Shown here piece by piece: positions 1,181 to 25,429 of a stretch of 37,932 bases of DNA. Source of the DNA: a virus; IMG/VR virus record IMGVR_UViG_3300025133_000301, positions 1 through 37,932 of that record; one strand, 5' to 3'. Within the stretch, counting starts at the first letter, position 1, and each line of letters opens with the position of its first letter. The notes below the pieces were generated by a model that worked only from the letters and a program-made list of their open reading frames with translations, did not search any database and was not told where the DNA came from. The translations under genes and the position numbers were made by a program.

Positions 1181-1402
1181 ATGAAAACTGAAAAGACGTT
1201 CCTCGAACATCTGCCGCCCGATCAGCTGGTGCCAATTGAGACGGTGGAACACTATACTGGACTGAATAGGCGCACTATAAAACGAATGGCCAATGGACAG
1301 CATCCGGCGGGGAAGTTGCCGTATGTGGATTTTGGACGATACGAAAAACGCTTTCGCGTAAGAGATGTGCTGGATTTTATTGAGAAGCGATATCGGAACT
1401 AG
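1181..1402 (+). CDS. excisionase-like / MerR-type winged HTH protein, 73 aa
   Basis: A short protein with the layout of Xis/MerR-like DNA-binding domains: LVPIETVEHYTGLNRRTIKR forms the helix-turn-helix (about residues 16-35), followed by a wing-like turn (KLPYVDFGRYEKRFRVRD) and a final helix DVLDFIEKRY. Proteins of this type act as recombination directionality factors or small regulators. Proximity to the integrase supports excisionase, but it converges on the integrase and the two genes overlap by 26 bases at their 3' ends, which is unusual. A second candidate directionality factor lies at 10223-10423. Confidence 0.65.
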   Translation: MKTEKTFLEHLPPDQLVPIETVEHYTGLNRRTIKRMANGQHPAGKLPYVDFGRYEKRFRVRDVLDFIEKRYRN

Positions 1403-2993
1403 CCCAGCGAGAAGCAAGTCTGTCTTCGACAATTTCATTTGCTTCAACAGCATGAAGGTAGTGTTGGGTTGTGCGGATGTCCGCATGGCCCATGCGCTCT
1501 TGCACTGTCCTGAGTTCCTCGCCTTCTCGCAGTAGGCCCGTGGCATAGCAATGTCGAAGCGAATAAAAAGTATGGTTGCCACCCTCTTTTCTGGTGGGGT
1601 ATCCGCAATATCTTAACAGCTTCTGGAAATTTTCATTAAGCACTCGTGGGCCATTCGGCTTTCCAGCATCGACTGGACCTCTTGGATTACCGCTGGGAAA
1701 GATGAAGAAATCAAATAGATTATGCTTTTTCAGGCGCTTTCGTTCAGCCTTGAACAGGTCAACCAGCTCTTGAACCATCCCTATCTCGCGGAACTCGGTC
1801 ACCTCTTCATTTTCTTCCTTGTCGGATTTAGGTGACCACACTTCTCCACGGGGTGACGTTACCTTGGTAACCCTGAGGATGCGCCTGTCGAGGTCTACAT
1901 GGTCCCACGGCAACCAGACGATTTCACTGTTGCGCAGGCCGCAAAATAGCCCGATGCGAAAGGCAAGGGGGAACATGCCTCGCATTGCCACCTTCTCCCG
2001 TGTGCGCTTTTCAAAGTAGAAGTTCTCTGGCACTGATTCTTTTGAGTTTTTGACCCACTCTATTACGATTGATTTAGAGATCGTATTGTGAGGAGAGTGA
2101 CTGCTTTGGTTGCCTTGATTCGGCTTAATGTAGGGCAGTAACCCATCCTTCATATACCGCTGTAAGGTGATCGGCGCTACGTTGAGCAGTTTCCGCAAAT
2201 GTTGGCGCGACACTTGGTGTGGCAGGGCGTCTAACTCTTCTGGTGCAATCAAGGATAGCTTCGATTTTCCACGAAGGGGCTTTCGCACTTTGAGTCGAGG
2301 CTCTTCCTTGGTGAGGTCAACCATGTCAAATGTCGCAGGTAAAAGGCTCTTAATCCACTCATCTGGAAGTATATGGCGTCTATGATTGGGCGTTACTCTG
2401 GTCGCGCCCCTACGTCTGACCTTTATTTTTTCTGCGGGATTCTCGCCGCCGATCATCTTTAGTTCTATAGCCGCCGATAAAATCTGCCTCATGGCAATAA
2501 TCCACTTCTCTTGCGTGCTGAGCGGCACAGCGTCCCTGCGCTGTTGGTTTATTTCTTCTTGTAAGACTTTATGAGGAACCTGCAAATCGGGGTAATTCTG
2601 CTTAAGCCAATTGATCGCGGTTTTGGCGCGTGTCATCTTGACTACATGATTAGCACTTAGCTTATTAACGCTCTGCGAGGCGTCGATGCGGTCGCCTGAG
2701 TATTGCTCAAGTATAGCAGCCCAATCGATTAATTTGGTTCCCAGCTGATTGACTTCTACGTGGTCGGAATAGCTGGGAAACGATGCGACTGCATCCGCAA
2801 CCGTTATATACCTTCGCTTTATCCACAACTCTACTTCATCGCGCCGGTCATTTTTCGTCCTGTAACGACGTTCCATAAGGTTGGCTACCTCAAGATAATC
2901 AAGAGCATCTTCTTCGGTGGGTAGCGTTTTGCTTCTCTGTGTGTGTAAGCGATAGCTTACCTTTCGTTTGTTTTTCTTGCTTTGCGATGCCAT
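1377..2993 (-). CDS. int: tyrosine recombinase (phage integrase) with inserted HTH domain
   Basis: 538 residues, longer than most phage integrases. A SAM-like core-binding domain spans about residues 80-200. The catalytic domain (about 325-520) carries R354 in CGLRNSE, R480 in YSLRHCYATG, H503 in GHADIRTT and the nucleophile Y512 in TTQHYLH. The position three before R480 is Tyr rather than the usual His. Between these domains, about residues 250-315, lies a MerR-like HTH (VSRQHLRKLLNVAPITLQRY followed by MKDGLLPYI and a helix IVIEWVKNS), not part of the standard fold. The start ATG at 2993 has an AGGGG site upstream. The tRNA-derived att site lies about 250 bases upstream, so integration into a tRNA gene is expected. 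Confidence 0.95.
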   Translation of the reverse strand: MASQSKKNKRKVSYRLHTQRSKTLPTEEDALDYLEVANLMERRYRTKNDRRDEVELWIKRRYITVADAVASFPSYSDHVEVNQLGTKLIDWAAILEQYSGDRIDASQSVNKLSANHVVKMTRAKTAINWLKQNYPDLQVPHKVLQEEINQQRRDAVPLSTQEKWIIAMRQILSAAIELKMIGGENPAEKIKVRRRGATRVTPNHRRHILPDEWIKSLLPATFDMVDLTKEEPRLKVRKPLRGKSKLSLIAPEELDALPHQVSRQHLRKLLNVAPITLQRYMKDGLLPYIKPNQGNQSSHSPHNTISKSIVIEWVKNSKESVPENFYFEKRTREKVAMRGMFPLAFRIGLFCGLRNSEIVWLPWDHVDLDRRILRVTKVTSPRGEVWSPKSDKEENEEVTEFREIGMVQELVDLFKAERKRLKKHNLFDFFIFPSGNPRGPVDAGKPNGPRVLNENFQKLLRYCGYPTRKEGGNHTFYSLRHCYATGLLREGEELRTVQERMGHADIRTTQHYLHAVEANEIVEDRLASRWASSDIASQ

Positions 2994-3078: not shown

Positions 3079-3198
3079 GAAATAAGATGTATATATGTGC
3101 ACTACTGTCACTCCTTGTACGTCCTTGTAACTCGTAATCACAGTTAAATGTAATATACGATACACTGCTTAAGCAAGGGATTTATATAGACTTAAGAC

Positions 3199-3240
3199 AA
3201 AAAAATATCGCAAGTTCATGTGGTGTATGAACTTGCGATA
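3199..3240 (-). terminator. rho-independent terminator downstream of the tRNA fragment
   Basis: Perfect 14-bp stem TATCGCAAGTTCAT (3206-3219) pairing with 3227-3240 around a 7-base loop. On the minus strand it is followed by seven T's. It begins two bases after the CCA end of the tRNA fragment, so the phage carries both the tRNA 3' half and a terminator. After integration this would end tRNA transcription before the integrase gene. Confidence 0.85.
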
Positions 3241-3242
3241 AT

Positions 3243-3291
3243 TGGTAGCGGCGGAGGGACTCGAACCCCCGACACGTGGATTATGATTCCA
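3243..3291 (-). other. attP core: 3' half of a tRNA gene, anticodon CAT
   Basis: Read on the minus strand this is the 3' half of a tRNA: anticodon loop ATCATAA with CAT at 34-36, 3' anticodon strand TCCAC, variable loop GTGTC, T-arm GGGGG-TTCGAGT-CCCTC, acceptor strand and encoded CCA. Upstream of the anticodon arm the sequence stops resembling a tRNA (no D-arm or 5' acceptor), and pair 27-43 is mismatched. This is the classic form of an attachment core that rebuilds the 3' end of a host tRNA, here tRNA-Met or tRNA-Ile2(CAT). The exact crossover point cannot be seen. Confidence 0.85.
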
Positions 3292-3327
3292 AAACTTGTC
3301 GATTAAAAAACAATAACTTACGACTTG

Positions 3328-3348
3328 CGAGTAACCAGATAGCAACAA
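3328..3348. repeat. third, diverged arm-type repeat
   Basis: CGAGTAACCAGATAGCAACA resembles the two 21-mers at 3018 and 3058 with a few substitutions and an indel. It lies on the opposite side of the tRNA-derived core and is read in the same direction. It is consistent with a P'-type arm site. Confidence 0.45.
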
Positions 3349-3383
3349 GCGTTACATGGTTGCTACATGACTAATATAACCTC

Positions 3384-3420
3384 AGGCCCTTCTACTGCAA
3401 AGTAGTGGGGCCTTTTTATT
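3384..3420 (+). terminator. rho-independent terminator
   Basis: Stem AGGCCC/GGGCCT (3384-3389 with 3408-3413) and an inner stem CTACT/AGTAG closed by a GCAA tetraloop, followed by TTTTATT. It faces rightward. No plus-strand gene lies between the integrase region and this hairpin, so it may stop readthrough from the attachment region into the early promoter at 3480, or end an unseen small RNA. Confidence 0.75.
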
Positions 3421-3479
3421 GCATCGAACAGGTTCGACAATTGAACCATGAGGGCTACCATATGGGATGACGATATTGA

Positions 3480-3508
3480 TTGACCATGCACTCGCGCATA
3501 CGTATTGT
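3480..3508 (+). promoter_or_regulatory. sigma-70-type promoter for the 3538 operon
   Basis: TTGACC (3480-3485), a 17-base spacer and TATTGT (3503-3508) form a good vegetative promoter. It is followed by a CA-rich leader (ACACACACTCACTCAC) and an AGGAAG ribosome site before the ATG at 3538. A strong terminator lies just upstream, so this promoter most likely starts an independent operon. Confidence 0.7.
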
Positions 3509-3537
3509 ACACACACTCACTCACAGGAAGAAAGACC

Positions 3538-3849
3538 ATGCAAGCGATAATTAACAGCAAGCGCTACGACACAGACACAGCTACGGAAATCGCAGAATAT
3601 GACAATGGATTCAACAGTGGAGACTTTCACCTCGTAGTTGAACGGTTGTATAAAACAGACAAGGGCGCATACTTCTTGGCTTGCTCTGGCGGTGCTTTAT
3701 CAAAGTATGCCAACATAGGTGGGAATTATCGAATCGAAGGCAAGCAGATTCGCCCATTGTCAAACTATGAAACTATTCAGTGGCTTGAAAAGCATGTCGA
3801 AACCGATGTATTAAACCAGCAATTTCCAGACAAAATAGAGGATGCATAA
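3538..3849 (+). CDS. conserved hypothetical protein, 103 aa
   Basis: MQAIINSKRYDTDTATEIAE followed by DFHLVVERLYKTDKGAYFLA and a Gly-rich turn. From memory this resembles a small family of uncharacterised proteins beginning 'INGKRYDTETA' found on phages and plasmids; its function is unknown. The ATG at 3538 was chosen over an upstream TTG because AGGAAG sits at proper spacing. The C-terminus FPDKIEDA is nearly repeated in the next protein, and its codons supply the ribosome site (AGAGGA) for the overlapping downstream ATG. Confidence 0.85.
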   Translation: MQAIINSKRYDTDTATEIAEYDNGFNSGDFHLVVERLYKTDKGAYFLACSGGALSKYANIGGNYRIEGKQIRPLSNYETIQWLEKHVETDVLNQQFPDKIEDA

Positions 3850-4142
3850 TGGATAAAATCACCGTCTGCCTCACAGGCAATCAACAAGTGCTATCAAAGT
3901 TGTGGGGTGCGTGCGATGAAATGGATCGTGGGGGGTTTGAAGATCATAAAATATATTACGTCTTAGACCGCGAAACAGCCTCGAACACTGATGCTGCGTC
4001 AGTGAGGCATTTACACAAGTCATTGTGGCTATATCATGACAATGTTTTGGGATTTGATATTATAACCGCTGGAGACGTAGACGATCTCGGGCAAGATCCT
4101 AACTATCTGAGTGCAAACCCCGACAAGATAGAGGACGCATAA
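3849..4142 (+). CDS. hypothetical protein, 97 aa
   Basis: Unrecognised soluble protein (ITVCLTGNQQVLSKLWGACD at the start). It ends NPDKIEDA, matching the C-terminus of the preceding gene, and uses the same TAATG junction with AGAGGA about nine bases before the next start. The repeated tail may reflect duplication of a gene boundary or selection for a coupling signal. Confidence 0.8.
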   Translation: MDKITVCLTGNQQVLSKLWGACDEMDRGGFEDHKIYYVLDRETASNTDAASVRHLHKSLWLYHDNVLGFDIITAGDVDDLGQDPNYLSANPDKIEDA

Positions 4143-4747
4143 TGACTGAAACAATTACGAAGGTTAGCATTAATTACTTGGAGAGCGAGATACTGCATCC
4201 GCTCTACCATCAATACGGTGGACAAACATCGTCACAACCTGCCCATATCTCGTTAGATGTTCGGACGGGCGATCTAATACCCGAAGCGAATTATGAGATT
4301 GGCAACGCAGTTCCGTTTGATGTCTGGCATGGGGTAATACAGCGCTATGGCATTAATAATGAACTCACCTATACTGAGATCAACGAGCTAATGGAAGCAC
4401 TGGCCCCATTTGCACAGCGCGTAATTGACGGCGCGGAAGTGGGGTATAATAGACAAGCCAATCTTACGGCGTCTTTTTCAGATGATGCTCAAGACGCTAT
4501 TGAGTCGATTGAAGACAAATGCGAAGACCTTGAAACGACATCTGGCGGGGTCTGGCAAGCCGAACATTGGTTTTCAGAGGACAGTGCCGCAGAGATATAT
4601 GGAATAACTGCAAAAACAACAGAATCAGAATTGAAAACGATCATCAAAAAAGCCATTGCTGATGCGAGAGACGAGCAAGATATCACAGTTGACGACATTG
4701 AAAGCTGGATCGAAAATGAGCTTGCGCAAATCAAGGAGGAGCAATAG
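4142..4747 (+). CDS. conserved hypothetical protein, 201 aa
   Basis: The N-terminal half (residues 1-105) includes PAHISLDVRTGDLIPEANYE, VPFDVWHGVIQRYGI and a helix ending VIDGAEVGYN. It resembles, from memory, uncharacterised plasmid/ICE/phage proteins with 'FDVWHG..LRYGI' motifs. The C-terminal half (110-201) is helical and acidic and may be a separate domain. It is coupled to the preceding gene by one base. An AAGGAGG at its 3' end serves the next tiny frame. No function is proposed. Confidence 0.8.
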   Translation: MTETITKVSINYLESEILHPLYHQYGGQTSSQPAHISLDVRTGDLIPEANYEIGNAVPFDVWHGVIQRYGINNELTYTEINELMEALAPFAQRVIDGAEVGYNRQANLTASFSDDAQDAIESIEDKCEDLETTSGGVWQAEHWFSEDSAAEIYGITAKTTESELKTIIKKAIADARDEQDITVDDIESWIENELAQIKEEQ

Positions 4748-4749
4748 TC

Positions 4750-4824
4750 ATGGCACGGAGCAAAAACAGTAGAAAGCGCATTGCTTCTGTTGCCCACGGC
4801 AAGCGGATGATCATGAATAGTTGA
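4750..4824 (+). CDS. putative basic micropeptide, 24 aa
   Basis: MARSKNSRKRIASVAHGKRM plus four residues. It has a strong AAGGAGGAG site about ten bases upstream, and its TGA is one base before the next ATG, so translation looks planned. It is highly basic, as expected of a nucleic-acid-binding or leader peptide. It could instead be a leader that couples translation to the next frame. Confidence 0.45.
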   Translation: MARSKNSRKRIASVAHGKRMIMNS

Positions 4825-4825
4825 C

Positions 4826-4963
4826 ATGCTGGATAGATTCGCAGAGACTGAAATACGAAATGACCTTGATTCAGCCAAGGTCGGCGGCATATGCTTGGCA
4901 TTGGATTGGGTTTTAGATCGGGTTGATACTGAAGATGTAGTCTCTGAACTGACTAATCAATAA
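4826..4963 (+). CDS. small hypothetical protein, 45 aa
   Basis: Begins MLDRFAETEIRNDLDSAKVG and ends DTEDVVSELTNQ. A predicted helical, acidic protein with an amphipathic centre (ICLALDWVLDRV). Its ATG follows the TGA of the 24-residue frame by one base, and no strong ribosome site of its own is visible, so coupling is likely. No family recognised. Confidence 0.5.
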   Translation: MLDRFAETEIRNDLDSAKVGGICLALDWVLDRVDTEDVVSELTNQ

Positions 4964-4977
4964 GCACGTAGCGAAGT

Positions 4978-4996
4978 GTTTGGAATTCATCCAAAC
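4978..4996 (+). promoter_or_regulatory. small hairpin before the 5022 gene
   Basis: GTTTGGA (4978-4984) and TCCAAAC (4990-4996) pair perfectly around a five-base loop, twelve bases before the GGAGG of the 5022 gene. There is no T-tract, so it is not a terminator; a role in mRNA stability or processing is only a guess. Confidence 0.35.
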
Positions 4997-5021
4997 CAAC
5001 ATAACACGGAGGTAATGGCAG

Positions 5022-5894
5022 ATGCCTGCACAAATTGAAATGCGCGAATGTATTGTCTTTAGAGAACGAAACAATTACGCAGTGTGCTATGAGGCTGAGC
5101 TTCCGCTGCCTTTGTGTCCACAGCTGAAGGAAGACATCACATATTGGTATGCCGGAGAAGACAAAGACTCACTCGGCTTAACTCATCGGCGCGTAAATAA
5201 AGATGCATATGATAGTCCCACGATATACGAAATGGACCAAATATCAAAAGGGATAGATCTTGGCGGCAGTCACTATAATTGGCGGCGTATTGCAATTGAC
5301 GACATTGAACATCCACTGCTAAAGCAACAGCTAGTCAGAGAACGTGATATTAGACAGCGAAGGATAGACAACAGAACAGCGCCAGAAGATCGTCCAGTAG
5401 TCTCAGCATCGATTCTGCGTGGATTAAAATTAATTACAGCACATATGAACGAAGCACTGGAGTGGACCGAGATGGCACTCGCTGCTGCACGCGCTGATGA
5501 CTCATATTTTCGTGCGAGTGCACAAAACATGAAACCTTCGTCTGATGTGCGCATGAAATACGGAGCAATGGATTACTCTATGCTGTTTTTTCAGTGTAAA
5601 GACAAAGCAGATTTTACAAAGCTCAGAAAAACAGCATATCACTTCTCTGAATTACAAATACAATCAAAATTGAGTTCTGAGAAAACGATACTACACGGCC
5701 TATGGCTTATGCACAACTACCTTACTGACATCTCAGAGGATAGAGAGCCAGATGCTGTAGTCAGCTATAGCGCACTGCACAAAGATAGTGTCGGGACTAA
5801 GGAGGATTTACATGCCGCAGCCGTGTGGTTGATGCAAGCATGCGCTTGGGCCGAAGACACGAAGAAGCTTAAGGAGGCAAAAAAAGTAGCATAA
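5022..5894 (+). CDS. hypothetical protein, 290 aa
   Basis: Largest gene of the small-gene operon; no family recognised. N-terminal about 110 residues contain beta-type segments (NNYAVCYEAELPLPLCPQL, WYAGEDKDSLGLTHRRVNKD). Residues 125-290 are mainly helical (LKLITAHMNEALEWTEMALA, TILHGLWLMHNYLTDI). No signal peptide or membrane segment. Start chosen at 5022 because GGAGG lies nine bases upstream; the nearer ATG at 5015 is out of frame. It shares one base with the next start. Confidence 0.85.
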   Translation: MPAQIEMRECIVFRERNNYAVCYEAELPLPLCPQLKEDITYWYAGEDKDSLGLTHRRVNKDAYDSPTIYEMDQISKGIDLGGSHYNWRRIAIDDIEHPLLKQQLVRERDIRQRRIDNRTAPEDRPVVSASILRGLKLITAHMNEALEWTEMALAAARADDSYFRASAQNMKPSSDVRMKYGAMDYSMLFFQCKDKADFTKLRKTAYHFSELQIQSKLSSEKTILHGLWLMHNYLTDISEDREPDAVVSYSALHKDSVGTKEDLHAAAVWLMQACAWAEDTKKLKEAKKVA

Positions 5895-6154
5895 TGAACA
5901 ACGACATTCTATTAGACGATAAAAAAGTCGGCAGCATCGAAGAGAACGAAGATGGCCAGTTTGAAATCCACGACGTTTATGGGGAACAAGCTGGACATCT
6001 CGCATACAAGTCACGAGAGCAAGCCGAAGAGCACGTCACAGGGCATTTAGAGTGGCTGGCTCACGTTGCAAGCAGGGACAATGTGGTTCATGGCTTTACG
6101 CAAATGGCCAAAGGCCACATTGAGAAATACAAGAACTTATTATCCAATACGTAG
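5894..6154 (+). CDS. hypothetical protein, 86 aa
   Basis: Starts MNNDILLDDKKVGSIEENED, followed by a short beta/alpha pattern (FEIHDVYGEQAGHLAYKSRE) that resembles small query-like domains in which a residue string is followed by 'YKSREQAEEHV'. No known function. TAATGA overlap with the preceding gene implies coupling. It is followed by a CA-repeat leader belonging to the next gene. Confidence 0.75.
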   Translation: MNNDILLDDKKVGSIEENEDGQFEIHDVYGEQAGHLAYKSREQAEEHVTGHLEWLAHVASRDNVVHGFTQMAKGHIEKYKNLLSNT

Positions 6155-6160
6155 TTAAGC

Positions 6161-6180
6161 ACACACACACTCACAAGGAG
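6161..6180 (+). promoter_or_regulatory. CA-rich translation leader (copy 2)
   Basis: ACACACACACTCACAAGGAG directly precedes the ATG at 6187. The same kind of CACACTCAC tract occurs before the genes at 3538 (from about 3509) and 11047 (from about 11015). CA-rich unstructured leaders can aid ribosome loading; repeated use before three genes suggests a phage-specific leader. Confidence 0.45.
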
Positions 6181-6186
6181 ATCAAC

Positions 6187-6432
6187 ATGTCCGACATCAC
6201 CACGCAAGAGCAGTATGACGAAAAAATTCCCGAATGGATCGAGGACACTCATCAGCTGAAGATGCTGGAATATGCCCTTGATTCGATACGCGAGGGAGGA
6301 TCCATAAATATGTACGGCGGGGCCGAGGCACTGCAGCAAGTCTATCCGGATCTGGAGAATCAGCAGGCGCGTGAGATGCTGCTATTTTGGATGGCCGCTT
6401 TCAGCTTTCGGCACAATTTGGTGGGTCAGTAA
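6187..6432 (+). CDS. hypothetical acidic protein, 81 aa
   Basis: MSDITTQEQYDEKIPEWIED at the start, a Gly-rich turn (REGGSINMYGGAEAL) in the middle and a C-terminal hydrophobic helix (REMLLFWMAAFSFRHNL). No recognised domain. AAGGAG lies at good spacing within the CA-rich leader. After its stop, 90 bases separate it from the next gene; I see only a 15-codon frame there, which I do not call. Confidence 0.75.
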   Translation: MSDITTQEQYDEKIPEWIEDTHQLKMLEYALDSIREGGSINMYGGAEALQQVYPDLENQQAREMLLFWMAAFSFRHNLVGQ

Positions 6433-6522
6433 ATGCCTTTTCATAGCATGGCATCCGGAGGGCTACTATGGTATATTTGAGAGCCCTGTCAGATGACACT
6501 ACTCACCGTATAGGAGTTTTTT

Positions 6523-6819
6523 GTGGGATCAACAAGCGACATTTTTAGGCGTCACTATTTTTGTGGACTAAAGGGACGCGGCAAGGTTAAAAATAAGATT
6601 GTTATTTGCGACTTGGCGACCAGTCTAGGGGGAGCAGATGCAGACTTTAAAATATGGGCTCACGCTGGATACCCCGATGAGATAAAGGATATAGCAGATG
6701 AACTTGATATAAATACCAGAGCCCAGATGAAACGAGATTGTTTTGATAAAATGATGGCAGAATCTCTTTGGCCCGTCGAAGACGAAGAATTAGATGACGA
6801 AGGCGAATCGTTCGCGTAA
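6523..6819 (+). CDS. hypothetical protein, 98 aa (GTG start)
   Basis: Translation probably begins at GTG 6523, six bases after AGGAG; no ATG fits. The protein has a basic N-terminus (FRRHYFCGLKGRGKVKNK), a central segment, and an acidic tail (PVEDEELDDEGE). No family recognised. It is the last gene before the very strong terminator at 6843, so it ends the operon started at 3480. Confidence 0.7.
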   Translation: MGSTSDIFRRHYFCGLKGRGKVKNKIVICDLATSLGGADADFKIWAHAGYPDEIKDIADELDINTRAQMKRDCFDKMMAESLWPVEDEELDDEGESFA

Positions 6820-6842
6820 TTAGAGAACTCGCACTATACGCA

Positions 6843-6879
6843 AAATAAGGGGCCCCTATTTAATAGGGGCCCCTTATTT
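6843..6879. terminator. strong bidirectional terminator
   Basis: A perfect 16-bp stem with core AGGGGCCCC pairs 6843-6858 with 6864-6879 around a five-base loop, with A/T-rich flanks that give a T-run on each strand. It closes the upstream small-gene operon and isolates the HTH cassette that follows. Confidence 0.9.
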
Positions 6880-6962
6880 ATTGTCCACAGATACGAAAGG
6901 AGCTTGATTCACGACGTTTGTTATACCCAATTGATATAAATAATAAAAAAAACTCATTATTA

Positions 6963-6976
6963 TGCCAAAAACGGCA
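6963..6976. promoter_or_regulatory. operator-like motif shared with the repressor region (site A)
   Basis: TGCCAAAAACGGCA has TGCC/GGCA half sites six bases apart. A 12-of-14 match, TGCCAAAAATGACA, lies at 9976-9989 upstream of the XRE repressor, and both are preceded by TTA. Presence in front of two HTH genes suggests a common regulator. Confidence 0.5.
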
Positions 6977-6979
6977 AAT

Positions 6980-6999
6980 ATGTTAATGGTTGTTAACAT
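6980..6999. promoter_or_regulatory. palindromic operator upstream of the 7074 HTH gene
   Basis: ATGTTAA and TTAACAT, perfect inverted 7-mers, are separated by six bases. The size and spacing fit a dimeric HTH operator. It lies about 75 bases before the GTG start of the HTH gene, which makes autoregulation plausible. Confidence 0.55.
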
Positions 7000-7073
7000 G
7001 GGCACTAAAGTAGTTGTTGTAATCGTATATTATACGTGCTATCTTTTTTCTCACGACACGAAAGGAGTTTAAT

Positions 7074-7853
7074 GTGCCCTTCAATAATTCGAGTAAACTG
7101 AAAGAATGGCTACATTATCATAATTTTGCTGCGATCACATTAGCAGATAAAATACAGGTGTCACGGCAGACGGTGGCTAAGATTGTCAGGAAAGAATTTG
7201 AGTCGGTAAATGTTAAAACAATACAAGCCATTGTTAACCACACAGGGCTGACTTGGGAAGATATTTGCTCCGATGTTCCTACGGCAACGTACCGACGAAC
7301 TGGAGTCCGACTCATTGATGAAGTGTTGCCGAACTTAATTCGCGATCTGAAGGAAGAAAGTACCGTGCGGCGCTATAAAAAATATATTTCCAATGATTTC
7401 CAATGCACTTCACCACACTACTTTCAGGCTGGCGTTGCAAGGCTTGGCGAAGATATTAGTAGAAAAGAACTCATTAGATACAAACCGTTTTGGACCATAG
7501 ATGAAGGTGACACTATTAACGGTGAGGTGATTGACTATAGCAAGGGATACATCGACTGGCCTACAATGTGCAGATATAACCGACCAGAGCAAGATGATGG
7601 GGACAACGAAACAGTGCATTCCGACCGATTTGTGAACATTGAAAGCATCGATCTTGTATGCACGCCCGATACCCGAGCCACGGCAAAAGAAGTTTTAATG
7701 GTGATAAAAAATATATGGCATAAAGAGCAACAGCTACACCGAATGCCACTAACAATGCTTCGCCTAACCTTCGAGGATCCGATAGTCAAAGCATCCATCG
7801 ATCTACCACCCAAGATTGTTAGCTGGTGGTGGTGTGAGTTGCCAACCCTTTAA
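7074..7853 (+). CDS. HTH protein with unknown C-terminal domain, 259 aa
   Basis: Residues 8-66 form a Cro/C1-type helix-turn-helix (ITLADKIQVSRQTVAKIVRK, then TIQAIVNHTGLTWEDI). The remaining 190 residues match nothing I recognise and contain no S24 peptidase or kinase motifs. GTG at 7074 was chosen because AAAGGAG lies six bases upstream and the overlapping ATG at 7072 is soon stopped. The gene has its own upstream palindrome and a strong terminator before it, and is followed 19 bases later by a 439-residue unknown gene, forming a two-gene cassette. Confidence 0.8.
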   Translation: MPFNNSSKLKEWLHYHNFAAITLADKIQVSRQTVAKIVRKEFESVNVKTIQAIVNHTGLTWEDICSDVPTATYRRTGVRLIDEVLPNLIRDLKEESTVRRYKKYISNDFQCTSPHYFQAGVARLGEDISRKELIRYKPFWTIDEGDTINGEVIDYSKGYIDWPTMCRYNRPEQDDGDNETVHSDRFVNIESIDLVCTPDTRATAKEVLMVIKNIWHKEQQLHRMPLTMLRLTFEDPIVKASIDLPPKIVSWWWCELPTL

Positions 7854-7872
7854 ATGCTGGCAGGTATTATTT

Positions 7873-9192
7873 ATGTGCAAAGACATTGATCTCGACTACA
7901 TGGGATATGATACGAGTAAACCCATGAGCTATGTGGAGCAATTACCTCACAGATCCACTCCTGACGCTACAGCCAATTCGATCATTGACAATGTCATCTT
8001 TCAGTTAAAGAGATATTTAACAAGCCCATGGACATGCTGTGGTGATTCCTTGTATAAATATTTTACACATATTCATACAAGGAATATATTTCTTCACCTC
8101 ATAAGCGAAGACGAAAAAATAGAATACTCATCAGACGTCTGTGCCATACTCCACGAGTTCGCAGGGCAATGCAACCGATATGATGAGACATTTATTAACG
8201 CTACCAAAATAGACCAATCTCAACTCGCAAGTCATCGTTTTACTGAATATTTCTCCGACTATTTCAATAAAGACTCTTTTATAAATGACACAAACAATCA
8301 CTTGCGCTTGCTGCATATTAAAGGTCTTCGCAGCTGGCCAGAACGAACACGCAATACAATGGATGTGCTTATTTGTGTGATTCAATTTACTTTTACCGAA
8401 AATGACTTATCCGGTATAGAACGTATAGACATATATGTCAATAAGGCTAACTATCTTAATTGCTTGCAAGATGATACCCGCACTGCTGATGCTCAGTATT
8501 TTGTGCATTTAGCCTCTACAAACCATGGCGATATAACTGAAACTATGGCGATGTGTAGTCGTGATTGCAAAGTGGTTAAATATGATTCAATAAACACGCC
8601 TCGCGACTCCAATCTAAAACCATCGGTGTCTATGCCAATGTCTCGGTGGTTGGAGTACATGCGTATCTGCAAGTCCACGCACGAACATTCGTACGAAGAC
8701 GCAACATATGAAACAGTGTTAAGAACTGACGAATTAACGCGCATCAAAGGTGTTTTGCGCTATCGATATTTAGGTCGCTGGCCAAATAATATGGACGCCA
8801 TAATAGAATCAGAGCCTTCCTTTGCCGAGCTTCCCAATGATGGCTTGGAGCGCATGATTACTTACCCATTTGAGTATGATATACACTACGATCTTTCCGG
8901 TCTAATTAATCGATTTGAAATCCATAGAAACTTGAATGATGTTTCTGCTTGCTATCAGACAGATGAGGATATTGTTTCTAAGACAATTAATGAAGCGGCT
9001 GCAAATGTAATAGAGCAAAACCGAGTCGATTTAGCTGAAGATATATTTTGTGCATTAGAACACCTATTAGAAAAAGAGCGAACCGATAATACAATTAAGC
9101 GCGTTAGTGATCGTCTCCAAGATTGCACTTCTATGAATCGAGAGGAAGCCGCCAAGGTCTTGGGTTCATATCTTGCTCAAACTATAAAATAA
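7873..9192 (+). CDS. unknown protein of HTH cassette, 439 aa
   Basis: No motif recognised: no Walker, nuclease, membrane or signal features. It contains several Cys residues (WTCCGDSLY, MAMCSRDCKVV) and a helical C-terminal third (VIEQNRVDLAEDIFCALEHL, then RLQDCTSMNREEAAKVLGSY). Start ATG 7873 was preferred to an upstream in-frame TTG inside the previous gene. Codon use looks AT-richer than the replication genes. Isolated between two terminators with an HTH partner, it looks like an accessory cargo gene for superinfection control, host modification or defence; which of these is not visible. Confidence 0.75.
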   Translation: MCKDIDLDYMGYDTSKPMSYVEQLPHRSTPDATANSIIDNVIFQLKRYLTSPWTCCGDSLYKYFTHIHTRNIFLHLISEDEKIEYSSDVCAILHEFAGQCNRYDETFINATKIDQSQLASHRFTEYFSDYFNKDSFINDTNNHLRLLHIKGLRSWPERTRNTMDVLICVIQFTFTENDLSGIERIDIYVNKANYLNCLQDDTRTADAQYFVHLASTNHGDITETMAMCSRDCKVVKYDSINTPRDSNLKPSVSMPMSRWLEYMRICKSTHEHSYEDATYETVLRTDELTRIKGVLRYRYLGRWPNNMDAIIESEPSFAELPNDGLERMITYPFEYDIHYDLSGLINRFEIHRNLNDVSACYQTDEDIVSKTINEAAANVIEQNRVDLAEDIFCALEHLLEKERTDNTIKRVSDRLQDCTSMNREEAAKVLGSYLAQTIK

Positions 9193-9197
9193 AAAAA

Positions 9198-9220
9198 GGG
9201 TAGGGACATTGTCCCTACCC
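9198..9220. terminator. terminator between convergent genes
   Basis: A 10-bp perfect stem (9198-9207 with 9211-9220, arm GGGTAGGGAC) and three-base loop. On the minus strand it runs into seven T's, so it mainly terminates the leftward repressor gene; it may also serve the rightward cassette. Confidence 0.85.
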
Positions 9221-9245
9221 TCTCATGTCAATAAATGTCTTTTTT

Positions 9246-9851
9246 TTATTGGCGACCTACCGCAGCAGTGAATCGCTGCCGTTGCAACTCTGACTGACTA
9301 ACCATCGACAGTTGAATTAGCACGCACTCATTGTCGTCGGCCTCATCGATTTTGGCAATCCATGCAGTGTGCCAAATTAAATTCATTTTGATCATAATTG
9401 GATCTGGCCGCTGATTGTGTTGCAGCTGCGCAATTGTTTCCTCTACTGCTATCCTGTCTTGTGGATCCAGTCGATCTACCAGCGACTCGCCTTCGATTGA
9501 ATTGTCGACATCCTTATGACGCTTACTGTCATATGTCACAATCCCATCATGTATTAGCAGTGTTCGGATCCACGAATTGGCCTGTGCGAATGTGCAGGGA
9601 TCTGTTTTTGATGTTTTATCTACTAAGCCTCCAACATTACTCTCGCCAGTTCCAATAATCAAATAATCGAGTGAAATTCCCAACACCTTAGCGATTCTGA
9701 TCGCCGTCGTGCTGTTAACCCCATTGACTCTACCTTTCTCGATTCGGTTAATTGTCGATTGAGGCACTTCGGCTTCCATGGCAACCGCTCTCTGCGACAT
9801 GCTTTTTAGCTCTCGCACCTGCTTGAGTCGATCTCCCCAATTATTTGTCAT
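9246..9851 (-). CDS. XRE-family repressor with PAS-like C-terminus
   Basis: Residues 8-66 are a clear Cro/C1 HTH (MSQRAVAMEAEVPQSTINRI, LGISLDYLI). Residues about 100-185 have the flow of a PAS fold, including LVDRLDPQDRIAVEETIA, which recalls the 'HPDDR' helix, then paired strands (MIKMNLIWHTAWIAKI, ECVLIQLSMVS). No S24 self-cleavage motif is seen, so classical RecA-driven induction is not expected; a sensed ligand or partner could release it instead. AAAGGAG lies upstream of the ATG. Divergent from the early region, it is the likely lysogeny repressor. Confidence 0.85.
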   Translation of the reverse strand: MTNNWGDRLKQVRELKSMSQRAVAMEAEVPQSTINRIEKGRVNGVNSTTAIRIAKVLGISLDYLIIGTGESNVGGLVDKTSKTDPCTFAQANSWIRTLLIHDGIVTYDSKRHKDVDNSIEGESLVDRLDPQDRIAVEETIAQLQHNQRPDPIMIKMNLIWHTAWIAKIDEADDNECVLIQLSMVSQSELQRQRFTAAVGRQ

Positions 9852-10060: not shown

Positions 10061-10090
10061 TTGACGGAGGTGATGCAATAAATATATATT
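10061..10090 (+). promoter_or_regulatory. early rightward promoter candidate 1
   Basis: TTGACG (10061-10066), an 18-base spacer and TATATT (10085-10090). It faces the structured RNA and the replication operon and lies next to the putative operator region. Confidence 0.55.
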
Positions 10091-10108
10091 TTGATATACT
10101 TTTAGATA

Positions 10109-10114
10109 TATAAT
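10109..10114 (+). promoter_or_regulatory. -10 element for the structured RNA
   Basis: A perfect TATAAT box whose expected start point, about 10121-10124, falls immediately before the first stem of the RNA at 10126. No good -35 lies at 17 bases; an activator or the upstream promoter may supply the RNA instead. Confidence 0.45.
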
Positions 10115-10124
10115 ATGAAATTTT

Positions 10125-10205
10125 CGAGGACAGTGGGCGAGCGGACTTACAAACCCGTCAGGGTCCTGAGGGTGATGCACTGCCAAGACCCCGCTGTCCT
10201 CTTTT
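10125..10205 (+). ncRNA. structured small RNA, C4 / P4-CI antisense-like
   Basis: An outer 8-bp stem GAGGACAG (10126-10133) pairs with CTGTCCTC (10194-10201) and is followed by TTTT. Inside, GGG/CCC closes a loop holding GGACTTACAAACCCG, and GGGTC (10161-10165) can pair with GACCC (10187-10191), giving a closed multi-hairpin fold of about 76 bases with no reading frame. As I remember them, the C4 antisense RNA of P1/P22-type phages and the P4 CI RNA share this size, closed shape and an ACTTA-AAACCCG loop. Its place between repressor and replication operon matches P4 immunity. Family assignment is from memory and needs a covariance search. Confidence 0.6.
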
Positions 10206-10222
10206 AACACACTGGAGTCCCG

Positions 10223-10423
10223 ATGATTGATCTAAGTCAAGATGTATATACTATACGCGAGGTAGCTCAGACTGTCGGGGTTACTTATCAGACCGCTAAT
10301 AAGTGGGCGAAAAATGGACGTTTCGGTCACTATCAATGCGGTCGGACCAGAAAAGTTTCCAAAGCCGACTTGCAGGGTTTTTTAGCTCAAGCCTATAAAC
10401 CCGCCGACACACTAACTCCCTAA
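10223..10423 (+). CDS. MerR/Xis-type HTH protein, 66 aa
   Basis: VYTIREVAQTVGVTYQTANK forms a helix-turn-helix near residues 8-27, followed by a short wing (WAKNGRFGHYQCGRTRKVS) and a helix KADLQGFLAQAY. This single-domain layout is typical of excisionases and small Cro-like regulators. GGAG lies seven bases before the ATG, close behind the structured RNA. It could be the Cro/antirepressor-type switch protein or an excisionase; its place in the early leader favours a regulator of the lytic switch. Confidence 0.75.
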   Translation: MIDLSQDVYTIREVAQTVGVTYQTANKWAKNGRFGHYQCGRTRKVSKADLQGFLAQAYKPADTLTP

Positions 10424-10489
10424 TATCGGCCTCAGGGCCTCCCAGATCGCGTAGAATCGACGTACGGCAAGGGACAGGCATGTCGAGTC

Positions 10490-10554: not shown

Positions 10555-10644
10555 GTAACTAAAAACCAACCATTTCTGTTTCAGTGAAGCTTTTTAAAGT
10601 GAAAATTAATCAAAATGACATGCAGGCGGTGTTAGCCGCCGTCT

Positions 10645-10731
10645 CTGTATATTACGCTAGTAATATACAGACTATATATATGTACATATGTACAGTACAT
10701 AAGTATATAAGTACATATATGTACTTATATA
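10645..10731. other. cluster of AT-rich palindromes, candidate replication origin or operator array
   Basis: Three perfect inverted repeats follow one another: 10645-10670 (arm CTGTATATTAC, four-base loop), 10681-10694 (TGTACATATGTACA) and 10704-10731, a 28-bp uninterrupted palindrome centred on ACATATATGT. GTACATA-type units recur throughout. They end 13 bases before the first gene of the replication run. Iteron-like palindromic AT-rich DNA here fits an origin, though a multi-site operator is equally possible. Apart from these repeats I see no gene in 10424-10744. Confidence 0.55.
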
Positions 10732-10744
10732 GGGGCTCACTTTT

Positions 10745-11038
10745 TTGAAACTCAAAGAGCTGTGCCCCGACGAGGCCCGAAATATGGCCGACTATGTCCA
10801 GCCTCACTGGACTGTTAGTGCGCTGCGAAAATCCATATCCCAGCATATCACCCACTTAAATCCATTGCCCATCGATGCGTATATCGTATCTGAGGCCTTG
10901 GGCGAGTATGCTTGCCTCGCAGCCGATGTGGAAAAACGATCTACCCTCAACCGCAAAAGTCACTGGTTTTCATTGCGCATAATGTTTGATGTCGCCAGTG
11001 CTTACGCACATAAAACACACACTCACTCACCACAGTAG
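10745..11038 (+). CDS. hypothetical protein, 97 aa (TTG start)
   Basis: Best start is TTG 10745 ([20 protein letters not shown]); AGGGG lies about ten bases upstream. An internal ATG at 10784 is the alternative. The protein is helical ([35 protein letters not shown]) and has no recognised family. Its 3' end encodes KTHTHSPQ because the CA-rich leader of the helicase gene overlaps it. Position at the head of the replication genes, next to the palindromes, makes an origin-related role conceivable but unproven. Confidence 0.65.
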
Positions 11039-11046: not shown

Positions 11047-12849
11047 ATGCAACAACAGTCATTGTTTGCGGAGAAGCCCAAGGATTCACAATCCGCAATT
11101 ACATTGCGCGACTATCAAGAGGACTGCATCAATGCGTCTCTTGAGGCTCTGTCCCATGGGGTAAAAAGACAGGTCGTATCTCAAGCCACAGGACTAGGCA
11201 AAACCGTCCAGTTTGCGCATATGATTCCTCGCATTCCAGAGCCAAAGACGGGCGCGACACAAGTGTTGGTCTTGGCGCATCGAAAGGAATTAGTGCAGCA
11301 GAACGCCCAAAAAATTGCCGATGCGAATCCCAATCTGACCGTAGAGATCGAACAAGCTCAATCGAAGGCATCGCCCACGGCTGATGTGATTTCCGCATCC
11401 GTGGCCACACTGGGACGACGACTTAAGTCGGGAGAGCTTACTCCTCGTATTCGCAAGTTTAACCCCAATAATTTCAAAGCAATTATTTGCGATGAGATGC
11501 ATCACTCTGCGGCATCGACCTACCAGAATATTTTTGAATATTTCGGCGTATTGAGTAATAAATCTCACATCATGCTTTCTGGTTGGTCGGCTACAGTGCG
11601 TCGGTCTGATGGAAAGCGGATGGATTCGACCTACCAAGAGATCGTCTACCACAAAAATATTCTCAACGCCATCGAAGAAAAGTGGTTGGCGAATCTACGG
11701 GCCGTGCGCATCTGGACGGGTGAAGACATTTCAAGTGTCTCGCTCAACCACGGTGATTTCAATACGAGCGAACTGGAATCTCAAGTCAATACACCGCAGC
11801 GCAACCATCAGATCGTCCAAGCTTACAAGGAGCACGCCGCCAATAGAAAAGCCACTCTGGTTTTTACGGTGGACAGAAAACACATCGCGGCAGTAACGGA
11901 TGCGTTTCGCGAGGAAGGCATCGATGCTCGTCTGGTGCATGGCGATACGGACGAAGCGGAACGTGCTCAGCTACTTGAGGATTTCCGTAATCGCAAATAC
12001 CCAGTGCTTGTCAATTGTGGTGTTCTGACTGAGGGCACCGACATACCCGTGATCGATACGATTATTATGGCACGGCCTACGCGATCCAGTGTGCTGTATC
12101 AGCAGATCATTGGGCGCGGCCTCAGGCTACATCCCAACAAGAAAGACTGCTTGGTAGTCGATATGGTTGATGTCTGCGCTGCCAACTCACTGATGACCAC
12201 ACCGGCTCTTTTTGGTCTACGATCTGAGTTTGACACCGAAGGCGAGGACATAGTCGAGACGTTTAATCGTATGTCGAATATGGCGATGGGCAATGAGCAT
12301 GTCTTAGAGGCCTTGTCGATAGATGCGGCTAAGACGATTAGCAGTGAAGAATTTGATCCATTTAGCGTAGAGCCTCCACCAGATCATATACAGGCTATGA
12401 GCGATTTGCGCTGGAGACAGGTAGGACAAGATCACTATCGATCCGACATGTCGAAGGGCGCAGGGTATCTGGAGATCAAACAGGACATCATTGGCGCATG
12501 GGAAGTAGCCTGTCATGTCCCTAACGCAGCGCCCACTAAAGTGCGCCGACGCAATGATCTCAATCTAGCGTTTCAGAGTGCCGATGGATTCATTCGCGAA
12601 AACTACAGTCAGCACATACCGCTGATGTCAAAAATGCAGAAATGGCATTCTGATCCCGCCACGGAAGCTCAGCGAGGGATGCTGGTCAAGTTTCGGATAC
12701 CTACCACATCCGCGATGACCAAGGGCGAAGCATCAGACTTAATCTCCAATCATTTTGCCAACATGAAAAAGAGGAAGAGTAAGCGTCAGGCCAGCAACAA
12801 AATAAAACCGAGAGTCGATGATGTTAAAGTCGGCGCTGTTGGGGGTTAA
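11047..12849 (+). CDS. superfamily 2 DNA/RNA helicase
   Basis: 600 residues with RecA-like domains in order: LRDYQ (20-24), Walker A ATGLGKT (47-53), DEMH box (149-152), SAT motif III (181-183), motif V LTEGTDIP (327-334) and motif [11 protein letters not shown] (352-360). The core is closest to DEAD/DEAH-like RAD25/type III restriction helicases. A C-terminal extension (about 400-600) ends with a [13 protein letters not shown]-type segment and TKGEASDLI, which I have seen at the C-termini of other phage SF2 helicases. Likely role: duplex melting or fork remodelling in phage replication. AGGAG upstream supports the start. Confidence 0.92.
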
Positions 12850-12851
12850 TC

Positions 12852-13484
12852 ATGGCAAATACAGTGACGCCATGGGAAGCCTTAGATGGTTTGCCAACAG
12901 AATCAGTGCGCAAGTTGGCATTGAATTTAATGGCAGTTGCCGTCGATGCAGATGGTGCAATACAGCAACTGTCAGATGGCAGTTATAAACGCAGTTGGGG
13001 TAAAACGGGATACGACGTAGGACGTGAATTACTTAACTGGTGCGATCACAAAGATGAAGTTAAACAGAAAATCGAGCGCAAAAAGGGACAAAAGAAAAAG
13101 GATCCTAATTCTGACCTGTCTGGTCGTTTGCTTGGGCACATGCGTGCGTATTATACGACACTATTCGGGAAAGAACCAAACATCGTCTACGGAAGAGATC
13201 GAAAGTTTCTTAATGAACTCCTAAAAGACAAAGCTCGCACTGAAGAATCCCTGCGCGATTATCTGACGTTTTGGTTGGAATGCGGAGCCGTCAAGCATCC
13301 AACGCACGAAATAGATGAATGGACACAAAAGAACATCTTTGGCAACGGGGATGTTCGGACTTTCATCACGAAGCTACAGAAAATCGACGCCGAGATAGCA
13401 AAGAAGACGCCCAAGGACACGCCCAAGGAAGAGTTGCCATGGGCCATCCGACGGCAAATGGAATCACAGGAGGTGGCAGTATGA
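12852..13484 (+). CDS. unknown replication-cluster protein, 210 aa
   Basis: No family recognised. A helical N-terminal part (SVRKLALNLMAVAVDADGAI), a Lys-rich linker (KIERKKGQKKKD, about 75-88) and a C-terminal helical part (AYYTTLFGKEPNIVYGRDRK, LRDYLTFWLECGAV). It sits two bases after the helicase and overlaps the primase-helicase by four bases (ATGA). Such a position is often taken by a helicase loader or replisome organiser, but no sequence motif confirms that. Confidence 0.8.
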   Translation: MANTVTPWEALDGLPTESVRKLALNLMAVAVDADGAIQQLSDGSYKRSWGKTGYDVGRELLNWCDHKDEVKQKIERKKGQKKKDPNSDLSGRLLGHMRAYYTTLFGKEPNIVYGRDRKFLNELLKDKARTEESLRDYLTFWLECGAVKHPTHEIDEWTQKNIFGNGDVRTFITKLQKIDAEIAKKTPKDTPKEELPWAIRRQMESQEVAV

Positions 13485-15325
13485 ATGGGGGCAACGATGC
13501 ATATGAATTTGTAGCAGCGCGAGCACAGCAAGATGGATGGGAGTTGAAGAAAGGGGGAGAAGGTGAACTCATTATAAAAACCTGTCCATTCTGCAATGAC
13601 CATAGCAATCATTTCTACCTGAATGCCGGTAGGGATGGCGCTCCATATCACTGCCAAAAGTGCAAGGCATCGGGTAATCTTACTACACTGAAACGGCATT
13701 TAAACATAGACGTCGATTCCACGTCTCCCAGCTTCGCCCGACTGGGAAGCATTGGTGAGTTTGCTACTCTTCGCACTGAAGAGCCAAAGAAAACTTTGCC
13801 CCTTGAATGGATCGATGAGTATCACGAGGCCCTAATGCGCGATGAGCACGAGGGGCTGAAGCTGTTAAAGGACGTGCGACACATCACCGAAGACACGGCC
13901 AAGGAATTTAAGGTTGGCGTGAAGAAAGCGGCGAATGCAAAAAAAGCCGTATGGGTCATCCCATACTTTTCTCATTCGGTCAATGGGCCGCATATCAGTT
14001 TGATCAAATACCGCAGCCTTCCACCAGACGAGCCCAAGAAGATGATGACCAGAGAAGCGGGGATGGCATCGCCACTTTTTCATGCGGAGAAATTGGACTA
14101 CGGGAAAGATTCTGTGGTCCTCTGCGAAGGCGAGATCGATGCCATGTCCATCTGGCAGTGCGGACACTGGAATGTGGTCTCGGGAGCCGTCGGCGCAGGG
14201 GGGAAGGGAATGAAGTCCGAATGGTTTGATCTACTCTCTCAGTTCAAGCGCGTCGTATTGGTCTACGATCCGGACAAGGCAGGGCAAACCACGGCTCGTG
14301 ACTTCCAACGGAAACTGGGTGAAGAGGTCGTGGTCAATGTCGAATTGCCTGCTGGCATGGATGCCAATGACGTACTCGTACATCACGGCGATGAGTTCTT
14401 GTACGAGATCATCGACAAAGCCCAAGAAAAGCCTATCGAAGGCGTCGAGTCATTATCACAGGCACTGGAAGGACTGCAAGAAGAGTTGATGCTGGAGGGC
14501 ACACTCGACTCTGGCCTACCATGGCATTGGCCGCTGTTCAATGAGGCTCTGGCAAAGGTCAACTATGGTGAGTTTTGGATCGTAACCGGACAAGAGGGGC
14601 GAGGAAAAACAACCCTAATGAAACAGCAACTGCTAGAATGGGCAAAGATGAATATTCCCAGTCTGCTCTGGTGTGCTGAGATGCCTATACGACAGATCGC
14701 AAGACAGTATGTGCAGTCGATCACCTCAACGCGCAAGAAAGATCTGACACAAGAGACATTAGCTGTGGCCTATGAGCAGATCGCGGACGTGCCGCTCTAT
14801 GTCGCATATCCAAGCTTGGACCCAAGCATAGATTCGCTGATTAGCATTATGACACAGGCCTATCGTGAATACGATATTCGCATCTTCGTCGTAGACAATC
14901 TGATGATGCTGACCATGAGCGCTCGCCATAATGAGGTGAATCACGAACAAGGGCGCGTAGCCAAGGCCCTCAAAGAATTCGCTGTTTACAATGAGTGCAG
15001 TGTATTTCTGATCGCCCACCCTAAAAAGCCACAGGGCAGTGATGATGAGCGCGTGGAAACGCTTAATGAGATTAGCGGATCCAAGATGGTCCCTCAATTG
15101 GCCGACAACGCGTTCACCGTATTCCGCAAGAACACACAGGCCAAGCACTCTAGTGAACTGGACGGCGAACCGTCGCAGCTGCTTGATCCTATAACATCAA
15201 TCGTTCCGCTCAAGGGTAGAGACACAGAAGGGGCGGGTGTTCCAAAGCTATTCATGGAAGGGCATTTTTCCCGCTTCCGCGATGCCACCGCTGCCGACTA
15301 CGATGGCATCGTAAACTTGAGATAA
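13481..15325 (+). CDS. bifunctional primase-helicase (T7 gp4-like)
   Basis: 614 residues. N-terminal zinc finger C35-x2-C38 and C58-x2-C61 (CPFC, CQKC); Toprim domain with CEGEID (215-220) and DPDKAG (263-268); DnaB-family helicase with Walker A GQEGRGKTT (370-378) and Walker B VVDNLMM (470-476), then AHPKKP sensor region. It would make primers and unwind DNA at the phage fork. Start 13481 is set by AGGAGG and the ATGA overlap with the preceding gene; an upstream extension in frame has no ribosome site. Confidence 0.95.
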   Translation: MNGGNDAYEFVAARAQQDGWELKKGGEGELIIKTCPFCNDHSNHFYLNAGRDGAPYHCQKCKASGNLTTLKRHLNIDVDSTSPSFARLGSIGEFATLRTEEPKKTLPLEWIDEYHEALMRDEHEGLKLLKDVRHITEDTAKEFKVGVKKAANAKKAVWVIPYFSHSVNGPHISLIKYRSLPPDEPKKMMTREAGMASPLFHAEKLDYGKDSVVLCEGEIDAMSIWQCGHWNVVSGAVGAGGKGMKSEWFDLLSQFKRVVLVYDPDKAGQTTARDFQRKLGEEVVVNVELPAGMDANDVLVHHGDEFLYEIIDKAQEKPIEGVESLSQALEGLQEELMLEGTLDSGLPWHWPLFNEALAKVNYGEFWIVTGQEGRGKTTLMKQQLLEWAKMNIPSLLWCAEMPIRQIARQYVQSITSTRKKDLTQETLAVAYEQIADVPLYVAYPSLDPSIDSLISIMTQAYREYDIRIFVVDNLMMLTMSARHNEVNHEQGRVAKALKEFAVYNECSVFLIAHPKKPQGSDDERVETLNEISGSKMVPQLADNAFTVFRKNTQAKHSSELDGEPSQLLDPITSIVPLKGRDTEGAGVPKLFMEGHFSRFRDATAADYDGIVNLR

Positions 15326-24535: not shown

Positions 24536-25429
24536 ATGGATTACCCGATACAGAAGAGTGAAAAAAATGCGATAACGCGGCTATGTCGGCGCTATCGACA
24601 TCTGCCTCCCATGACGCGACCCGATGAACGCGCTTCATTTGCACAGTTGCGCATTCTTGAAAACGTAGGCGGTCCACGTCCAAAAATAGACACCCTGCAA
24701 GATGCGATAATGCGCTCTAATGTGCGCTTTGTAGCGACGGTAGTGTTGTCATATGATCGACGCAGTAAAGTTTTAGCTGTAGATGATCTGATGTCAGAGG
24801 GCATGGTAGGGTTGATGGAGGCAATGACCCGCTTCGACCCAAGTCGCAACTGTAAGTTTATCACGTATGCCGTGTGGTGGATTCGCAACACGATTATTAG
24901 TGCACTGATACAAGCCTACACGATAACTCCTTCTCAATCGTTTATTGATAAAATCCGCAAAATGGAGAAGGAAAAGAAATCACTTGAGCAGGCATTAGGT
25001 AGACACCTCACAGATAGGGAGAGCTTTGAACTGAGCGAGATGCGCAAGGATTTTGTCGAAGCCTATATAGCCCACACCTCAGTAATTACCTCTCTTGATA
25101 TGCCTTTGTTTTTTATCGACAACGATTTGGAAGGCTCAACGACGCTGCGCGACTTTATACGCGACGAAACAATTCAACCGAGCGACGATGCAATGGTTGA
25201 TGCTGAGTTGCTACTGGACGTTAGGGAGGTAGTCAATTCCATCGATGGACTACGCGAGCGGTTTATAGTCCAGAGCTATCACGGGATAGATGGCCCTGCG
25301 ATGGTCTTAGAAGATATTGGCAAATCTCTAGGCTTAACTAGAGAGCGAGTGCGGCAGATCTATTGGATGGCACTACGAAAACTGTCGCGCAATAAGGTGC
25401 TGGCCTCGCATCGCAAGGACAGCTACTAA
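24536..25429 (+). CDS. sigma-70-family RNA polymerase sigma factor
   Basis: 297 residues with sigma regions 2 to 4. Region 2 (about 57-128): DDLMSEGMVGLMEAMTRFDP and KFITYAVWWIRNTIISALIQ. Region 3 (about 135-185) and region 4 (232-290) with LEDIGKSLGLTRERVRQIYW, the HTH that reads the -35 box. Region 1.1 is absent. It resembles RpoD/RpoS/RpoH-type factors rather than small ECF or phage T4 gp55 types. It likely directs host polymerase to late promoters, probably on the minus strand. Its stop overlaps the convergent tail gene stop by four bases, with no terminator between. Confidence 0.93.
   Translation: MDYPIQKSEKNAITRLCRRYRHLPPMTRPDERASFAQLRILENVGGPRPKIDTLQDAIMRSNVRFVATVVLSYDRRSKVLAVDDLMSEGMVGLMEAMTRFDPSRNCKFITYAVWWIRNTIISALIQAYTITPSQSFIDKIRKMEKEKKSLEQALGRHLTDRESFELSEMRKDFVEAYIAHTSVITSLDMPLFFIDNDLEGSTTLRDFIRDETIQPSDDAMVDAELLLDVREVVNSIDGLRERFIVQSYHGIDGPAMVLEDIGKSLGLTRERVRQIYWMALRKLSRNKVLASHRKDSY

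Follow-up and report, generated by a model that had tools for sequence, protein, structure and literature searches.

In phage P4, the CI RNA is processed out of its own operon's leader; by pairing with the sequences seqA and seqC, it causes transcription of the replication genes to end early (PMC4825925). CI and the c4 RNAs of P1 and P7 are C4 antisense RNAs (Rfam RF01695), which lie on the strand of their operon in the phage immunity region, are about 80 nt long and have a GC-rich closing stem. IsrK, which is grouped with the P4 seqA leader (RF01394), is a short, terminator-ended RNA with read-through into the downstream phage operon (PMC4825925). The put RNA of phage HK022 consists of two stem-loops arranged in a V and lacks a terminal U-run; in the case of putL, an early promoter is situated just upstream (PMC9378689).

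An RNA element at positions 10125–10205 (plus strand) of the IMG/VR record IMGVR_UViG_3300025133_000301, the 37,932 nt of which were analysed whole and are called the window here, resembles C4 RNAs in the features named above. It shares with the put RNA a length of about 70–80 nt and a structured, leader-proximal site in an early operon, and the logic proposed for it below is comparable to that of the P4 and IsrK leaders. By gene content, the record is a temperate tailed phage, with a tyrosine integrase (1377–2993, minus strand) and terminase and portal genes; protein scans of IMG/VR place it in a rare phage lineage. A segment near the integrase (3244–3290, minus strand) resembles half of a host tRNA, the 3′ part from the anticodon loop CAT to the acceptor end, and is, judged by sequence, a probable core of attP. 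tRNA halves of a similar kind are found in plasmid records (the best 92–94% over about 50 bases, Rhizobiales) and in some of the genomes belonging to the G001 phylum.

The element is non-coding and, as the earlier note had stated and gene calls confirm, lies between the repressor and the replication operon. The CI-like HTH_3 repressor (9246–9851, minus strand; Pfam HTH_3, PHROG) is divergent from the early operon. On the plus strand, the first gene 3′ of the element starts about 17 nt beyond its end and encodes a 66-aa HTH_17 protein (10223–10423; Pfam HTH_17, E 2.9e-9; PHROG excisionase/regulator) with its own Shine-Dalgarno sequence, TGGAG. It is followed by a 97-aa ORF (10745–11038), a ResIII/DEAD helicase of the replication operon (11047–12849) and a Toprim/DnaB-like primase-helicase (13319–15325), the last two identified by Pfam and PHROG. 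The left operon, with genes at 3505–9192, is on the same strand as the element. At its end, a second HTH protein (HTH_26; 7074–7853) is encoded, which has no PHROG match and is possibly a second regulator.

The stable fold that had been claimed for the element is borne out: its minimum free energy is −37.0 kcal/mol (z −3.31), which one of 200 dinucleotide shuffles equals and which ranks second-lowest among 1402 stepped plus-strand windows of 81 nt. Taken by itself, the fold is moderately unusual, since about 0.4% of the windows along the genome reach a z-score of −3.3. Adding native flanks (10097–10222) weakens z to −2.1, and the strongest folding in the leader is found in another segment (10600–10735, z to −6.5). 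The outer stem, described earlier as 8 bp, has 12 bp between GAGGACAGUGGG (10126–10137) and CCCGCUGUCCUC (10190–10201), arms of 12 nt that are 92% complementary and include one G–U pair. An internal loop (10138–10140 opposite 10184–10189) separates it from a middle stem of 4 bp (10141–10144 with 10180–10183), which is weak, with alternatives within 1 kcal/mol.

In the second internal loop, the 5′ strand ACUUACAA (10145–10152) faces GAUGCA (10174–10179). The predicted apical hairpin (10153–10173) reads ACCC, an unpaired G, UCAG, the loop GGUC (10162–10165), CUGA and GGGU, and its stem comprises 8 bp between 10153–10161 and 10166–10173. The string GGACTTACAAACCCG, previously taken for a loop, is thus composed of GG from the middle stem, the internal-loop strand ACTTACAA, ACCC from the apical stem and the bulged G. 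Rather than the multi-branched RNA envisaged earlier, the three helices stack into one irregular rod with two asymmetric internal loops between them. The minimum free energy and centroid structures are both single rods, and all 25 of the best suboptimal structures retain the rod with its outer and apical stems. In a growing transcript, the final fold requires the 3′ arm, the energy dropping from −19.6 to −37 kcal/mol between 10194 and 10204.

The outer stem runs straight into TTTT (10202–10205), so that the T-run noted earlier is present and the 3′ end is terminator-like. On the plus strand of the 38-kb genome, this is the sole stem of at least 10 bp with TTTT behind it; shuffled genomes hold 0.27 such combinations per genome for stems of at least 10 bp and 0.05 for at least 12 bp. 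The GC-rich stem directly before a T-run therefore exceeds chance, and this combination, more than the fold itself, is the really rare aspect of the element. The minus strand has three stem and T-run cases, all of them compact terminator-like hairpins, intergenic or at gene ends, and carries no T-run after the stem at the element itself. Unlike a compact hairpin with a loop of 3–8 nt and a long U-tract, the element closes a region of 52 nt and ends in four T, and a consensus terminator scan did not report 10125–10205. The clear terminators of the same phage (3205–3240, 6845–6877 and 9197–9221) are compact, with loops of 3–7 nt; the last is an inverted repeat followed by T-rich sequence that ends the left operon. 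The leader of the left operon, the first gene of which starts at about 3538, holds a strong terminator-like hairpin of its own (3384–3416; GGCCC...GGGCC, then TTTTT), so both plus-strand operons may start behind a terminator-like structure. A comparison of the element with that leader (3170–3505) gave a trivial match only.

The earlier note had assigned the element to the C4/P4-CI type and proposed a search with the Rfam C4 model as a check. Neither C4, c4-a1b1 nor isrK matched, at E up to 5 over the whole window and up to 10 over the local stretch. The same models recognised phage P4, used as a positive control (C4, 74.9 bits, E 3.4e-14; isrK, 60.8 bits; c4-a1b1, 44.1 bits), C4 and isrK exceeding their gathering scores and c4-a1b1 narrowly missing its own. 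In the P4 control alignment, the C4 model shows two neighbouring hairpins enclosed by an outer stem, an arrangement that appears in none of the minimum free energy, centroid and 25 best suboptimal structures of the element. The family label thus fails on both features, covariance match and shape, and the element is not a member of the C4 family. What stands of the earlier proposal, on the strength of fold and position, is a candidate structured non-coding RNA at the site that P4-type phages use to regulate replication genes; control by early termination also fits, given the terminator-like 3′ end. The case shows that position and a strong fold are insufficient to call a C4 RNA.

Pairing between the element and the downstream leader had also been considered conceivable. 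The hexamer GGGTTT and a recurring string, CTATAAACCCGCC, do occur there, at 10375–10380 and 10393–10405, respectively, each one base off the earlier positions (10376–10381 and 10392–10404). Pairing of GGGTTT with AAACCC is at chance level, two matches of loop 6-mers to the leader being seen where 1.2 are expected, and GGGTTT is almost wholly paired in the predicted leader fold. The best candidate site for the apical hairpin is 10425–10440 (plus strand), just past the HTH stop codon, where 15 of 16 positions pair with 10161–10176 when G–U is included; this pairing starts in the apical loop and amounts to −27.6 kcal/mol. It was equalled by 2 of 100 shuffles and 5 of 138 native genome stretches, and the latter proportion makes it not significant. 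The test has limited power, as on P4 it flagged the downstream site only, the one target to give a rare run (10 bp, in 1 of 100). In cofolding, the element keeps its own rod, and the pairing is a lead, not evidence.

Searches for homologues of the element were negative. The exact loop string TTACAAACCCGTCAGG occurs in 19 stretches of viral contigs, none with a similar fold; a gapped pattern on both internal loops gave no match; and a single-sequence covariance model (R1) found no homologue in any of the helicase and terminase relatives or their whole records, its minus-strand self-match at E 0.02 reflecting only a near-palindrome. IMG/VR was scanned with the helicase, primase, repressor and terminase proteins, and L048 is the only syntenic relative that covers the region, besides two contigs that belong to one phage population with the window. 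These two, L046 and L047 (97.8–99.9% DNA identity), begin at 14.5 and 16.1 kb, short of the element, and a further contig, L049, starts within the helicase. Scans of genomes and of the phylum gave helicase relatives at 30–37% only, and no terminase relatives in 388 and 392 genomes.

L048 (80.5 kb; helicase 48%, terminase 56%) has the same gene order. Its repressor is followed by a 62-aa HTH_17 protein (26% identity to that of the window, E 2e-7), a palindrome array rich in AT, an ORF of 98 aa and then the helicase. A short hairpin and no such RNA is present ahead of its HTH gene, so the specific element is not conserved. In L048, a different, stronger folded RNA (2126–2223) comes after the 98-aa ORF and stands directly before the helicase ribosome-binding site. 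Its fold (−57 kcal/mol, z −5.7) consists of a three-way junction with two hairpins inside it and, behind the junction, a hairpin of 18 bp; Rfam gave no match for this RNA. Its shape is more C4-like than that of the window element, and direct alignment of the two revealed no convincing similarity. A folded RNA before the ribosome-binding site of some early-operon gene may be a conserved trait, two cases being too few to establish this. The AT-rich palindromic repeat arrays that separate the HTH_17 gene from the ORF after it (window, 10600–10740, GTACATATGTAC-type, the source of the strongest folding in the leader; L048, 1610–1720, CATATGTCATATG-type) are conserved in position and different in sequence, which suggests a replication origin or operator array.

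It is proposed, with a probability of about 0.42, that the element is a cis-acting, terminator-ended leader RNA, or attenuator, at the start of the early and replication operon. The fold, the position and the non-chance stem with its T-run are the established part of this reading. We infer a promoter between 10061 and 10122: a candidate sigma-70-like early promoter, TTGACG-18-TATATT, is found at 10061–10090 and TATAAT at 10109–10114, directly before the element (both plus strand), promoter consensus matches in the region being at chance level (two found, 2.5 expected). The phage also encodes a sigma factor (24536–25429; PHROG 351, E 2.8e-36), so some phage promoters need not resemble sigma-70 sites. 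Transcription from a promoter divergent to the repressor would enter the element almost immediately, and the nascent RNA would fold into the rod. A fraction of polymerases would then stop at TTTT, freeing a leader RNA of about 80–100 nt, and the remainder would read through into the HTH_17, helicase and primase genes. The read-through ratio would be shifted at the internal loops, by a partner RNA or by a factor of the phage or its host.

The attenuator reading is favoured by the stable fold, by the stem and TTTT that are unique on the plus strand, and by the non-coding site ahead of the HTH_17 gene, which has a Shine-Dalgarno sequence of its own. It also draws on the minus strand having no T-run there, on the final fold forming only once the 3′ arm is made, and on L048, in which a strong hairpin and a short T-run precede the helicase ribosome-binding site, though elsewhere in the operon. 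Like an intrinsic terminator, the element has a GC-rich stem running into TTTT upstream of an operon; the 52-nt closed region and U-tract of only four set it apart from the phage's own compact terminators and weaken the reading, as do the chance-level promoter matches, the lack of a homologue, the z of −2.1 with flanks and the absence upstream of the L048 HTH gene.

A plain terminator, insulating the operon against transcripts from the left without any regulation, would account for the stem and T-run and for the left operon lying on the same strand. This is an unlikely explanation, as the left operon is already ended by the inverted repeat at 9197–9221, and a long internal rod with a short U-tract differs from the terminators that this phage otherwise uses. 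Another view, which we consider improbable to a like degree, is that the fold is mostly due to chance or is a decaying element without function: a few windows with z of −3.3 are expected in any case, the sole syntenic relative does not conserve the element, and the two contigs of the same population do not reach the region. Against this, a 12-bp GC-rich stem, a T-run, a non-coding position and a gene boundary coincide here, and the stem and T-run alone are expected 0.05 times. A leader that binds a protein or ligand, or modifies the polymerase as HK022 put does, would act on elongation or translation and not through its own termination. Such a role is consistent with a long rod that lies near a presumed promoter and whose two internal loops are asymmetric, and putL has a similar site (PMC9378689). 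The two stem-loops of put without a U-run (PMC9378689) are unlike a single rod ending in TTTT, and the Rfam searches gave no riboswitch or leader family, so that this alternative is decidedly doubtful.

A trans-acting antisense RNA of the P4-CI/C4 type, by which the leader RNA would pair further down the same transcript and force termination to give replication-gene immunity, is similarly hard to credit. Its location and strand are right, P4 CI likewise comes from its own operon's leader and pairs with seqA and seqC (PMC4825925), and 10425–10440 is a candidate site for pairing to the apical loop and the 3′ arm. However, none of the three covariance models matches where P4 does, a single rod replaces a stem enclosing two hairpins, the leader complementarity falls within the native background (5 of 138), the 3′ U-run is a difference from C4 RNAs, and the phage has an ordinary protein repressor. 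The comparison with IsrK is limited in the same way by a different fold and by trans pairing without support. Least probable, and held as a slim chance, is an independently evolved RNA immunity switch, in which the terminated leader would act in trans through its apical loop on 10425–10440, and perhaps elsewhere, shutting down the replication genes in the manner of P4 CI, though by a different fold and with a protein repressor also present; the L048 folded RNA would be its counterpart.

The element is best regarded as a real leader structure with a terminator-like end, an orphan of an ordinary kind whose function is a prediction. If it is an attenuator, it would add a sequence-orphan example to the RNA control of the lysis–lysogeny switch. 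This example would come from a rare phage lineage, in which the two members examined share gene order and differ in the leader RNAs of their early operons.
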